From Parvibaculum lavamentivorans DS-1 (GTDB lineage: Bacteria > Pseudomonadota > Alphaproteobacteria > Parvibaculales > Parvibaculaceae): DNA of 64,000 nucleotides. A model generated the notes under the pieces. It made no database searches. It saw only the letters and a list, made by a program, of their open reading frames with translations, and was not told the DNA's origin. The position numbers and the translations under genes were made by a program. Location of the stretch: the NCBI RefSeq assembly GCF_000017565.1, contig NC_009719.1:1426001-1490000 (forward strand), written 5' to 3'. This document shows, one piece after another, positions 13,426 to 64,000 of this stretch. How positions within the stretch are numbered: position 1 is the stretch's first letter; every line of letters begins with the position of its first letter.

Positions 13426-13878
<453 letters not shown>

Positions 13879-60056: not shown

Positions 60057-61484
60057 ATGAGCGACGCGTCTTTCGACCTTAAATATACGAGCTTCGGCGG
60101 CCGTATCGTCATGGTCGGTTTCGGCAGCATCGGCCAGGGCGTCCTGCCGCTTCTGTTGCGTCATATCGATGTGAAGCCCGGTCAGATTTCGATCGTGACG
60201 GCGGATGAGACGGGGCGTGCCGAGGCGGAAGAGTATGGTGTCCGGTTCACGGTTTCGCCGCTCCGCAAGGGAAATTATCTCTCGACCCTGGATCCGCTGA
60301 TTTCGGAAGGCGACTTCCTCATCAATCTCTCGGTCGATGTGTCGAGTGTTGCGCTGGCGGAGTTCTGCCGGTCGAAGGGTGCGCTTTATCTCGACACCTG
60401 CATCGAACCCTGGAGCGGACAATATACCGACCCCTCCCGCTCGCCTTCACAGCGGTCCAATTACGCGCTTCGCGAAACCGCACTGGCGCTTCGGGACAAA
60501 TACAGCGATGGGCCGACCGCCATTTTCACACATGGCGCCAATCCCGGTCTTGTCTCGCATTTCGTGAAGCAGGCCTTGCTCAATATCGCGAAGGACACCG
60601 GCGTCGAGGCGGGAAAGCCTGAAAGCCGCGAGGAATGGGCACAACTGTCCCTGCGTCTCGGCATCAAGGTCATTCATATCGCCGAACGGGATACGCAGGT
60701 TTCGCCGATACCGAAAGCGGCGGGAGAGTTCGTCAATACATGGTCGGTCGATGGGTTTGTCGGCGAAGGCAGCCAGCCGGCGGAGCTTGGCTGGGGCACG
60801 CATGAACGGCATTTTCCGGCGGATGGGCATGGGCACAGCGCCGGCTCGCGCTGTGCGATTTTTCTCGCCCGTCCCGGCGCTTCCACGCGCGTGCGCAGCT
60901 GGACGCCGAATGAAGGGCCCTATCATGGCTGGCTTATCACGCATAACGAATCGATTTCGCTTGCCGACTATCTGACGGTGAGGGAGGGGGAGGCCGTGAA
61001 ATGCCGGCCCACCGTTCACTACGCCTATCATCCCTGCAATGCTGCGGTCCTTTCTCTGCACGAACTTGCCGGAAAGAACTGGCAGATACAGAAAACAAAG
61101 CGGCTAATGATGGATGAAATCAGCGAGGGAATGGACGAGCTTGGCGTTCTGCTGATGGGTCATGCCAAGGGCGCTTATTGGTACGGTTCGCAACTCACAA
61201 TCGAAGAGGCACGGCGCCTTGCGCCGCATAACAATGCGACGAGCCTTCAGGTCACGGTCGCCGTGCTCTCAGGCATGATCTGGGCGATCGAGAATCCGGA
61301 TCGCTGGGTGACGGAACCGGAAGAAATGGATTTCGAGCGGGTTCTGGAAATTGCGCGGCCCTATCTCGGGACGATGACGGGCGTCTATAGCGACTGGACA
61401 CCGCTGCTCGATCGCGGCCTGCTGTTCAGTGAGGATGTCGATGAAGAAGACCCCTGGCAGTTCAAGAATTTCCGGGTGATCTGA
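60057..61484 (+). CDS. hss: Homospermidine synthase
   Basis: NAD-dependent enzyme forming sym-homospermidine from two putrescines or from putrescine and spermidine, 475 residues. The saccharopine-dehydrogenase-like N-terminus has IVMVGFGSIGQGVLPLLLRH. Later conserved segments are LYLDTCIEPWSGQY, FTHGANPGLVSHFVKQAL, LGWGTHERHFP, and HYAYHPCNAAVLSLHEL. Homospermidine is a main polyamine in many alphaproteobacteria. It may draw on the same putrescine that the cluster at the left end breaks down. Confidence 0.94.
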   Translation: MSDASFDLKYTSFGGRIVMVGFGSIGQGVLPLLLRHIDVKPGQISIVTADETGRAEAEEYGVRFTVSPLRKGNYLSTLDPLISEGDFLINLSVDVSSVALAEFCRSKGALYLDTCIEPWSGQYTDPSRSPSQRSNYALRETALALRDKYSDGPTAIFTHGANPGLVSHFVKQALLNIAKDTGVEAGKPESREEWAQLSLRLGIKVIHIAERDTQVSPIPKAAGEFVNTWSVDGFVGEGSQPAELGWGTHERHFPADGHGHSAGSRCAIFLARPGASTRVRSWTPNEGPYHGWLITHNESISLADYLTVREGEAVKCRPTVHYAYHPCNAAVLSLHELAGKNWQIQKTKRLMMDEISEGMDELGVLLMGHAKGAYWYGSQLTIEEARRLAPHNNATSLQVTVAVLSGMIWAIENPDRWVTEPEEMDFERVLEIARPYLGTMTGVYSDWTPLLDRGLLFSEDVDEEDPWQFKNFRVI

Positions 61485-61496
61485 CGTTCAAAGGAA

Positions 61497-61528
61497 AAGG
61501 CCGCCCCCTCATACAAAGGGGCGGCCTT
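61497..61528. terminator. Bidirectional terminator between hss and the small YRG-repeat gene
   Basis: AAGGCCGCCCC and GGGGCGGCCTT form an 11-bp stem over a ten-base loop. The minus strand continues TTTTCCTTT (good). The plus strand continues CTTGCTT (weaker). It lies between convergent genes. Confidence 0.85.
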
Positions 61529-61608
61529 CTTGCTTACCGGGACCTGCGCGCTGAGTTCTCGTTTGGGGAAGGCAACCCTCAGACGGTGACAGGAGCGGCA
61601 GTTTTCCG

Positions 61609-61785
61609 TCAGCCGTGCTGCGGAATGCCCCGGTAGCGCAAGTCTGCGCGGCTGGCGCGCGGCTTTTCCTTGAGGGAAAGCGCGGAGTTGTAGCGCGTGC
61701 CGCGGTAATTGAGAGTGGTGTCCTGGCTCTTCGCCGCATTCTTTTCGCCGTGATGGGCCACGCCCCTGTAGCTGAGATCGGTCAT
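61609..61785 (-). CDS. Small DUF4278-like protein with three YRG repeats
   Basis: A 58-residue protein beginning MTDLSYRGVAHHGEK. It holds three spaced copies of a short repeat, LSYRGVAH, LNYRGTRY and LRYRGIPQ, the pattern of DUF4278. It has an excellent ribosome-binding site (AGGAGG, six bases before ATG) and a consensus-like promoter upstream. It is basic and has no membrane segment. Function is unknown. It diverges from the RHH-PII fusion gene, and its promoter overlaps heptamer repeats that the fusion protein might bind. Confidence 0.75.
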   Translation of the reverse strand: MTDLSYRGVAHHGEKNAAKSQDTTLNYRGTRYNSALSLKEKPRASRADLRYRGIPQHG

Positions 61786-61818
61786 GGATGCCTCCTGTGT
61801 CGCTGATGTCTTGAAGGC

Positions 61819-61847
61819 AATATGAGTAATATGTGTGAGTTTGTCAA
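61819..61847 (-). promoter_or_regulatory. Sigma70 promoter of the DUF4278-like gene
   Basis: Minus strand -35 TTGACA (61842-61847) and -10 CATATT (61819-61824) are separated by 17 bases. Transcription should begin near 61812, giving a short leader of under 30 bases. Confidence 0.7.
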
Positions 61848-61854
61848 TATAAGT
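61821..61854 (+). promoter_or_regulatory. Three direct heptamer repeats overlapping the divergent promoter
   Basis: TATGAGT (61821), TGTGAGT (61834) and TATAAGT (61848) share T-R-T-R-AGT and start 13 and 14 bases apart. They cover the -10, the spacer and the edge of the -35 of the DUF4278-like promoter. Arrays of short direct repeats are typical ribbon-helix-helix operators, and an RHH protein is encoded next door. Confidence 0.45.
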
Positions 61855-61981
61855 AACTTAACATTTTTCGGACAGGCGAAGAGCTGACTGTTACAAAGGG
61901 CTAATTCTCAAGCTTTCCGGCGTTTTTCGGCATAATTGCCGCCCTTGACCGTCGGCGAGTGTCGTGTGTGCGAGGTTGAAT

Positions 61982-62479
61982 ATGGAAAAACTTGATCAGC
62001 GAATCCAACTCGTCGCATCGGTCGAGTTCAACAATGTGGTGGATCGTTGGCGCCGGGAGCAGGCGGATCTGCCCTCCCGTTCGGAAGCCATCCGGCGCCT
62101 CGTCCTTCACGGCCTCGAATATGAAAAGAGTTTTCCGATGCGCATGATCACCGCGATTATCCGGCCCCATAAATACGAGGAGCTGCGCGATGCATTGATC
62201 GCGCTCGGCATTGAGGGCATCACCGTTACGCAGGTTTCGGGCTTCGGCCGGCAGCGGGGCCAGACGGAGATTTATCGGGGCGCCGAATACAATGTCGCCG
62301 AAGTGCCGAAAGTCCGTATCGACGTCGCCGTGAGTGCCGCGCTTGCCGAAAAGGCGGTCCGCGAGATCGAGCGGGTGGCCAATACCGGCAAGATCGGCGA
62401 CGGCAAGATATTCGTGCAGCCGCTGGAGCAGGTCATCCGCATCCGCACCGGTGAGACGAACGAGACCGCGCTCGGCTGA
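61982..62479 (+). CDS. Ribbon-helix-helix/PII fusion protein (or RHH gene with in-frame PII)
   Basis: A 165-residue frame with two parts. Residues 1-52 have the RHH pattern: strand RIQLVAS, helix EFNNVVDRWRREQADLP, helix SRSEAIRRLVLHGLEYE. Residues 53-165 are a complete PII protein. Met53 aligns with PII Met1, the T-loop is [17 protein letters not shown] with Tyr103 equivalent to the uridylylated Tyr51, and [11 protein letters not shown] and RIRTGE complete the nucleotide sites. GAGG precedes the first ATG. A weaker AAAAGAG lies seven bases before Met53, so a separate PII may also be made. The sequence suggests a DNA-binding regulator sensing 2-oxoglutarate, ATP and ADP directly. No amt gene is adjacent. 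Confidence 0.85.
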   Translation: MEKLDQRIQLVASVEFNNVVDRWRREQADLPSRSEAIRRLVLHGLEYEKSFPMRMITAIIRPHKYEELRDALIALGIEGITVTQVSGFGRQRGQTEIYRGAEYNVAEVPKVRIDVAVSAALAEKAVREIERVANTGKIGDGKIFVQPLEQVIRIRTGETNETALG

Positions 62480-62485
62480 CAGGTT

Positions 62486-63188
62486 CTACCCCGCGGCGGC
62501 GCCGCTTGCGATCATGCCGCGGATTTCCTCTTCGCTGAAACCGCAGCTCGCCAGGATGCTGCGTGTGTGCTCGCCGATGCCCGGCGCCGGGCGCGGCGCG
62601 GTTTTCTTCTCACCCTTGATGGAGATGGGGCTGCCGACTGTGCGCAGGCCATTGGTGCCGGCAATTTCGGGCAATAGTCCGTTGGCTGCCACCTGGCTGC
62701 ATTCGAGATGATCGCTTGGCTGTGCGATCGGACCGAAGGTAATGCCGGCGCTCACGAAGCATTCTCGCCAATGCTGCCAGTCGGCGGTGACGAATATATC
62801 TTCCAGCAATTTTACAAGCTCCGCCCCATTCGCCTTGCGCGCCTCCGGCGTTGCGAATCGCGGATCGTCCAGCCATTCGGAACGGCCGATACAGTGCGCG
62901 AGCAGCGGCCATTCGCGCGCGTAGTTCAGCAAGGCAAGCATGAACCAGCGTCCGTCGCGGCATTTGTAGAGCTCCGTCAATGCGCCGCGCTGACCGCGCC
63001 GCAGCCTCACGGAAAAATCCGCATCGCAAAGAACCGCCTGCATCCAGACACTGTTCGACCAAAGCCCGTTGGCGAGAAGCGAAGTCGATACCACGCCGCC
63101 CTTGCCGGTTTTCTCGCGCCGGTAGAGGCCCGGCAATGAAGCTCGCGCAATCGATGACCAGCAGGTCATCGAATATCCCCTTCTCCAT
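62486..63188 (-). pseudogene. CaiB/BaiF CoA-transferase pseudogene with internal deletion and frameshift
   Basis: It begins with a perfect ribosome-binding site (GGGGAGGAAATC, then ATG) and the family N-terminus (MEKGIFDDLLVIDCASFIAGP). It then jumps after about 21 residues, and in another frame, to the middle-to-end of the same family: LYRREKTGKGGVVSTSLLANGLWSNS through RSILASCGFSEEEIRGMI. About 140-150 residues, including the usual catalytic Asp region, are missing compared with a ~400-residue enzyme. Neither frame alone makes a working product. A paralogue, intact, lies at 43.9-45.2 kb. Confidence 0.82.
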
Positions 63189-63423
63189 GATTTCCTCCCC
63201 TTGTCCCGTCTTTGCGGGCCTTTGATTTCGCGATGGGAAGCATGAGGTGCCTGCAGGCTGAAGTCGACCGTCTTCATGGGGCCCAAGAATGTCTCACGTT
63301 GAAACACTCACCGCGCTTCCCCCCGGGGAAAACCCCTGGTTTCCCTAACGAGCCGTTTACCCGGTCGCAACGAACGGCGGCCTATGCTCCCGCAAGACAC
63401 TATTAGCGGGCGATGCCACTCTC

Positions 63424-64000
63424 ATGTTCGGTCACAAAGCCAGCAGGGGCCGCCGGAAATCTCTTCTGGCAGGCTACTCGACCAACCTCGGCGAACTCAT
63501 GTCTCGCCAGAGGTCGGAGGTTGCCTTGCGCTCGGCCAAGATCGAAGCCGACATGGCAAGCCGGACCAAATCCGAATTCCTTGCGAATATGAGCCACGAG
63601 CTGCGGACGCCGCTCAACGCCATTATCGGTTTTTCGGAATTCATCCAGCACATTGCGGCAAGCGGCAAACCTTCTGAAAAGACCGGCGAATATGCGACGC
63701 ATATTGCAGGCGCCGGCCGCCACCTCCTCAATATCATCTCCGACATTCTCGATATTGCGAAAATCGAGAGCGGCACGTTTTCGCTCGCTACCGAGCCTTA
63801 TGACGTGCGCGAACTTGTGGATGCCTGCATTGTGCTGATCGAACCTCGCATCCGAGAGAAGAAGCAGGTGCTCGAGATCAAGGCCGACCCGTCGCTGCCG
63901 GAGGTGCCGGTCGATGCGCGCCGGATCAAGCAGGTGCTCATCAACCTCCTGTCCAACGCGCACAAGTTTACCGGTGAAGGCGGACGCATCGTGCTGGTTG
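63424..64000 (+). CDS. Sensor histidine kinase, N-terminal part (runs off right edge)
   Basis: The visible 192 residues have a short basic leader, then a HisKA domain with phosphorylated His58 in NMSHELRTPLNAIIGFSE, and the start of the ATPase domain with the N-box INLLSNAHKFT. There is no membrane segment or sensor domain before HisKA, so it is either a soluble kinase or a shortened PleC/DivJ-like protein. The start lacks a clear ribosome-binding site and sits 235 bases from the pseudogene. A response-regulator partner is not visible. Confidence 0.85.
   Translation, partial: MFGHKASRGRRKSLLAGYSTNLGELMSRQRSEVALRSAKIEADMASRTKSEFLANMSHELRTPLNAIIGFSEFIQHIAASGKPSEKTGEYATHIAGAGRHLLNIISDILDIAKIESGTFSLATEPYDVRELVDACIVLIEPRIREKKQVLEIKADPSLPEVPVDARRIKQVLINLLSNAHKFTGEGGRIVLV

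Follow-up and report, generated by a model that had tools for sequence, protein, structure and literature searches.

PII proteins, which are among the most studied and most widespread signal proteins, are thought to act through contact with other proteins and not with DNA, and in the GlnK-AmtR and GlnK-TnrA systems PII controls a transcription factor for nitrogen genes. NikR, on the other side, joins a ribbon-helix-helix (RHH) domain to an ACT-like ferredoxin-fold sensor. Here we describe a gene of Parvibaculum lavamentivorans DS-1 that encodes an RHH-like head fused to a complete PII protein (RHH-PII). The gene lies in a stretch of 64,000 nucleotides, positions 1,426,001 to 1,490,000 of contig NC_009719.1 (hereafter the window), of a genome consisting of one contig of 3,914,745 bases. 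We consider it probable that RHH-PII is a one-component nitrogen regulator, in which the PII part would read 2-oxoglutarate, ATP and ADP while the RHH-like head would bind 9-base-pair (bp) repeats. The gene and its two parts are as follows.

61982..62479, + strand: RHH-PII fusion gene, 165 amino acids (reading frame, Pfam, selection, conservation, tree)
61982..62137, + strand: RHH-like domain and linker, codons 1-52, with DQRIQLVAS at residues 5-13 (selection, conservation)
62138..62476, + strand: complete PII domain, codons 53-165, with the signatures RPHKY and EVPK

Head and sensor of RHH-PII

The first-pass annotation of the window had described one uninterrupted 165-codon frame in which a 52-residue head precedes a complete PII, and our analysis confirmed this description. 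The frame runs unbroken from ATG to TGA over 165 codons plus the stop; residues 53-158 match Pfam P-II with 97 bits (cut-off 25), and residues 53-164 align without a gap, using phmmer, with a solved PII (chain 3mhy_A). Alignment with the solved PII and with a canonical PII set revealed the T-loop, B-loop (TGKIGDGKIF) and C-loop (RIRTGE) motifs as well as the Tyr51 equivalent in EIYRGAEY, which is Tyr103 of RHH-PII, and the domain has the PII fold. A homotrimer that would bind ATP, ADP and 2-oxoglutarate is expected. The sensor domain shares 51-64% of its residues with the 14 canonical PII proteins of the alignment; the host genome itself carries canonical PII genes at position 3462816 and at window positions 13447-13764, together with a weak further PF00543 match.

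For the head, we compared 30 fusion loci (21 distinct proteins from two clades), which were placed by coordinates rather than by motif. Of the 52 head positions 28 were invariant, Met1 included, compared with 50 of the 112 positions in PII. No other unbroken stretch of invariant residues in the head was as long as DQRIQLVAS, the predicted base-reading strand, which is identical in 30/30 loci, and Met53 was likewise kept in all 30. Using 16 full-length fusion copies, all on one strand, we obtained a ratio of nonsynonymous to synonymous polymorphism (pN/pS) of 0.094 for codons 1-52, of 0.161 for PII codons 53-164, and of 1.02 for the 20 codons that precede Met1 in frame; when the two most divergent copies were removed, these ratios became 0.039, 0.113 and 1.00, respectively. 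Because of the low pN/pS in codons 1-52, we conclude that the head is translated and constrained at least as much as PII, and the selection on and conservation of these codons rule out a chance or artefact frame.

The assignment of the head to the RHH family, which the first-pass annotation had proposed, held for a homologue and fell short for the head itself. On the fusion head, RHH_1 (PF01402, CopG-like) scored 15.4-15.9 bits where its cut-off demands 20.5, and at E values up to 1 it matched five of the nine members of the N-terminal alignment (best 0.012). A homologous head that is fused to YfbU in the sister genome G018 (locus L149; E 4.9e-12 with our N-terminal model) passed the same cut-off with 23.7 bits. 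The RHH alignment had no match among the sequences of solved structures, and the model of the fusion monomer contained helices at 14-25 and 33-50 (mean predicted local distance difference test score 87), with the strand unformed and a weak best PDB match. By eye, a related RHH head on another domain (L131, genome G135) resembles L149. The stand-alone RHH nearest to the fusion head (KLNQRLQIVAS) was seen at about 8900-9100 of L154 (genome G195), in a region with several RHH genes that resembles, by eye, a Mu-like prophage; an RHH of this prophage type is a possible source of the fusion head.

Two clades of fusions and their DUF4278 neighbours

In the window's genus, the N-terminal model matched 17 of 27 genomes, 16 with intact fusions and one (G020) with the gene split across two contigs; the ten genomes without a match include two incomplete assemblies (G025, 74%, and G029, 57%), and among near-complete genomes the fusion was found in 11/19. 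None of 13 genomes from other genera of the family had the fusion, and one of them (G009) had a weak stand-alone relative. Matches numbered 16 among 385 genomes of the class (two of the genus, four further fusions and ten other genes) and 14 among 398 genomes of the phylum. The four further fusions all fell within one family, f49, whose order is represented by 18 genomes of 0.9-1.4 Mb; here the fusion was present in 14/18 genomes and in 6/6 near-complete ones. This second clade has the same architecture, its fusions aligning with those of the genus through the linker without gaps. Four second-clade contexts had a G+C content of 31-36%. All 18 genomes of the order had a P-II match, one canonical PII was found besides the fusion in 11/14 fusion genomes, and GlnD was above its cut-off in 13/18.

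We built a tree of 120 distinct PII domains, in which all 21 fusions fell into one clade (support 100/96, and 99% of 200 bootstraps), the inner forks being weak because of the few columns. Most canonical PII proteins of the tree set have FKL and FLPK where the fusion has RPHKY and EVPK, and in the same set, whose canonical rows were picked up by a pattern, the signatures PHKY and [ED][VI]PK occurred in 21/21 distinct fusion rows and 0/99 distinct canonical rows. Separate RHH and PII genes side by side, which would have spoken for two genes instead of one, were not found within about 1.5 kb on each side of 30 loci (28 places) that carry stand-alone or otherwise fused RHH relatives from the class, phylum and family scans. 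A scan of contigs from named genomes gave, among its best 80 loci, one fusion, in Parvibaculum; rarity of the fusion does not follow from this, because the second clade escaped that scan too. Matches in other genera that apparently extended upstream of PII had no RHH head. On plasmids, 123 records matched, eight of them covering 80% or more, and among the ten matches listed seven were Bradyrhizobium glnK (89% cover) beginning at query residue 18 and three began at 42; viral contigs gave 66 pattern matches and no relative.

Divergent from the fusion gene lies a small neighbour.

61609..61785, - strand: DUF4278 gene, 58 amino acids, three YRG motifs, divergent (Pfam PF14105 47.4 bits, cut-off 25.3)

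This gene had a pN/pS of 0.51 over 16 copies. Within the genus, its homologue occurred in 17/17 fusion genomes versus 0/10 others, always adjoining the fusion and divergent. We also searched PF14105 in 80 genomes (from the genus, two of the 17 with the fusion and the ten without it; 18 from f49; 13 from elsewhere in the family; and 37 others), of which five matched (G000, G012, G306, G421 and G424), all adjoining the fusion and three above cut-off. By a looser rule for f49, a short frame containing two or more YRG motifs, 10/14 fusion loci had one or two YRG open reading frames (ORFs) upstream, on the same strand and within 900 bases, and a tRNA-Gly gene stood between ORF and fusion at two loci (L150 and L153); no such ORF was found upstream in the flanks searched at L167, L168, L171 and L173. 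Against the PF14105 cut-off of 25.3, the ORF of L153 scored 25.8 and that of L160, below it, 13.6; because the scores are borderline or sub-threshold, the DUF4278 name in f49 rests on the YRG pattern and the position. Six near-identical f49 YRG ORFs had a pN/pS of 0.16. Genome G306 (L172/L153) has two tandem DUF4278-like genes upstream of its fusion, overlapping or abutting.

In the glutamine-synthetase inactivating factor IF17, according to PMC6316151, DUF4278 spans the N-terminal portion, which is dispensable for function yet promotes stability, and DUF4278 genes are associated with glutamine riboswitches; repression of gifA and gifB by NtcA under nitrogen limitation is described in PMC8092223. 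PirA was also considered as a DUF4278 protein and dropped, the literature consulted giving it no support.

Repeats at the locus and at nitrogen genes

The region between the two divergent genes contains the proposed operator and two promoter-like elements.

61822..61839, + strand: tandem 9-bp repeats ATGAGTAAT ATGTGTGAG, proposed RHH-PII operator (conserved block, matrix)
61819..61847, - strand: promoter-like TTGACA (61847-61842), 17 nucleotides, CATATT (61824-61819) of the DUF4278 gene (by eye; conserved)
61869..61897, + strand: promoter-like CGGACA, 17 nucleotides, TACAAA of the fusion gene (by eye)

An almost invariant intergenic block with the consensus AATATGAGTAAGATGTGTAAGTTTGTCAATA, which on the opposite strand reads TTGACA-N17-CATATT, is common to 12 loci. 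The two repeats, at 61822-61830 and 61831-61839, fill the spacer between the -35 and -10 hexamers of the DUF4278 promoter-like element, and elements resembling the fusion-gene promoter lie at the same place in the other 11 loci compared. Allowing up to three mismatches, the repeat pattern was found at the locus in 16/17 fusion genomes, G024 having four mismatches. Elsewhere in the 27 genomes of the genus it occurred six times, always with three mismatches and twice upstream of glnK, versus 11 matches for a reversed control pattern. When loosened so as to include the site of the window itself, the pattern occurred once in the window, with 0.01 expected, and a matrix built without that site still ranked it first in the window (23.4 versus 14.7 bits). 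Rfam gave nothing above gathering score over 61000-63500.

A matrix made of seven distinct sites, all from the window's genus, was then applied to the second clade. We scanned the regions upstream of 11 YRG ORFs of f49, nine of which are first genes with upstream sequence present; all nine fitted the matrix, their best scores being reached by 0, 1, 1, 3, 0, 7, 1, 0 and 0 of 300 shuffles. There was no match at L170, which is cut by a contig end, or, within the L172 tandem, at the second gene. Ahead of the second-clade fusion gene, too, the matrix scan found no repeat site. In the whole genome of G306 (1,444,043 bases, 1412 crude ORFs, 95.5% coding), the top intergenic matches lay upstream of glnB-glutamine synthetase (19.2 bits), amtB (16.7) and DUF4278 (14.6), the next scoring 13.0; without the intergenic filter, DUF4278 ranked tenth of 81 matches above 11 bits, ranks 3-9 being inside crude ORFs. 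With 2000 column-permuted matrices, none of the three promoters was among the top three in 1965 cases, one in 34, two in one and all three in none, a control that is not fully independent because glnB and amtB were named as targets after the first scan. Family models backed the G306 names glutamine synthetase, P-II, ammonium transporter, NtrC and sigma-54, and the best NCBIfam match of the glutamine synthetase was GlnII, below its cut-off. A role of RHH-PII as a replacement for NtrC was dropped, NtrC being present in G306.

Each of the six g219 genomes with a canonical PII carried the glnB site, at -92/-93 and with 10.9-19.2 bits; of these six, three are incomplete assemblies with no fusion found. 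The matrix scan gave no repeat match in any of eight g53 genomes or in the one g279 genome; a sigma-54-like element was present in all 15. In the window's genus, the glnB upstream regions scored 12.0 bits in G036, which has no fusion, 11.0 in one genome and 10.4 in another, the others being lower. The glnK upstream regions scored 12-20 bits in five fusion genomes (G018, G028, G027, G022 and G037), a range that the window's own genome did not reach, and G025 (74% complete, no fusion found) scored the same as G027. These candidate glnK sites, far upstream and in some genomes only, are no more than suggestive. In G018 and G028 (L360 and L368) they score 19-20 bits and lie about 350 bases upstream, G018 having several similar copies in a row.

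Downstream of the fusion gene, the frames 62486-63307 and 62610-63188, both on the - strand, contain a remnant of a CoA-transferase III, of which the C-terminal half alone matches the profile (positions 172-366); a CaiB-like N-terminus was seen by eye in another frame, and the whole looks like a decayed gene.

Proposed mechanism, rival readings and known systems

The first-pass annotation had suggested a one-component regulator that couples ligand sensing to operator binding, and the sequence supports this through the occurrence of the fusion in two distant clades, its linkage to DUF4278-type genes, the 9-bp repeats common to both, and the sites at glnB-glutamine synthetase and amtB in a second-clade genome. 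Under this reading, RHH-PII would bind DNA directly and in dependence on 2-oxoglutarate. In the proposed mechanism, RHH domains would pair, and two PII trimers would thereby form a hexamer with three RHH dimers, which would be the simplest answer to the puzzle of combining dimers with trimers and would suit a repeat array. The RHH dimers would read the array through DQRIQLVAS; the fixed linker length together with the invariance of this strand fits an operator common to both clades. Bound RHH-PII may block the DUF4278 promoter or modulate promoters, and 2-oxoglutarate, ATP/ADP and perhaps uridylylation of Tyr103 could alter the spacing of the RHH domains and, with it, the affinity. For the sign of control we can offer a guess by analogy with NtcA and gifB, namely that DUF4278 would be repressed at high 2-oxoglutarate.

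An alternative is that the repeats are read by another nitrogen regulator, the RHH-PII head merely oligomerising or recruiting a partner and PII acting by protein contact. The sub-threshold RHH_1 score of the fusion head, the lack of a repeat site before the second-clade fusion gene in the scan, the presence of NtrC in G306 and the three incomplete g219 genomes with a glnB site and no fusion found all agree with it, and the joint presence or absence of motif, fusion and DUF4278 in the genus does not by itself tell the reader of the motif. However, the strand predicted to read bases is also the longest stretch of unchanged residues in the head, and nitrogen promoters of one fusion-bearing clade were picked out by a matrix derived from the other; we therefore regard this alternative as quite unlikely.

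The gene might also yield two products, full RHH-PII and a PII-only form started at Met53, whose mixed trimers would make DNA binding tunable, an idea compatible with a one-component regulator. Met53 is kept in 30/30 fusion loci and, in both clades, follows purine-rich tracts, but it is also the start that the domain inherited from PII and its role may be structural, a linker rich in E, K and R explains the tracts as well, and pN/pS shows selection on the long form. We regard a second product as unlikely. RHH antitoxins autorepress, and the small gene adjoins the fusion in 17/17 fusion genomes of the genus, as an antitoxin/toxin-like divergent pair in which the RHH protein neutralises and autorepresses its small neighbour would have it. 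Such a pair is nevertheless highly improbable, given that the PII ligand motifs are intact, that DUF4278 is known from cyanobacterial nitrogen control, that repeat sites lie at glnB-glutamine synthetase and amtB, and that 4/14 second-clade fusions have no YRG neighbour in the stretch searched.

If RHH-PII is the one-component nitrogen regulator that we favour, PII signalling would become readable by a simple DNA-binding assay, the coupling of a trimeric sensor to dimeric RHH heads would be illustrated, and DUF4278 proteins would be tied to PII-type nitrogen sensing outside cyanobacteria. Going further, we lean somewhat towards a new regulator class in which PII itself is the transcription factor: RHH-PII hexamers on 9-bp arrays would respond to 2-oxoglutarate and adenylate charge without an intermediary. 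They would control the DUF4278 protein, which would tune glutamine synthetase or PII, as well as glnB-glutamine synthetase and amtB where sites exist, and the circuit would match the NtcA-gif loop while being built on PII and lying outside cyanobacteria.

In the open-access literature searched (PMC11288750 included), with subscription papers and preprints outside the scope, neither RHH-PII nor any other naturally occurring fusion between PII and a DNA-binding domain was found. PII and RHH are named separately in archaeal mobile elements (PMC6563490), the RHH of PMC7354497 is that of a proline-utilisation protein, and the PII fusions of PMC3861474 are engineered fluorescent ones. Among known systems, NikR is alike in being a one-component protein with an N-terminal RHH and a C-terminal ferredoxin-like ligand-sensing domain. 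RHH-PII differs from it in that its C-terminal domain is P-II and not the NikR-type nickel-binding ACT-like domain, the sensor being a full PII with 2-oxoglutarate and nucleotide motifs that is expected to be trimeric, and in its putative operator, a 9-bp tandem array. With GlnB and GlnK (PF00543) it shares the complete PII domain, the Tyr51 equivalent and the B- and C-loops, but it carries its own DNA-binding-like head, whereas in GlnK-AmtR and GlnK-TnrA the transcription factor is a separate protein. The NtcA/gifB (IF17) system, as described in PMC6316151 and PMC8092223, places a 2-oxoglutarate-linked regulator over a DUF4278-bearing small protein, as is proposed for RHH-PII, although the 58-residue DUF4278 protein appears, from its length, to be shorter than IF17. 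NtcA belongs to the CRP family and works with PipX and PII, whereas RHH-PII would be sensor and DNA binder in one chain.
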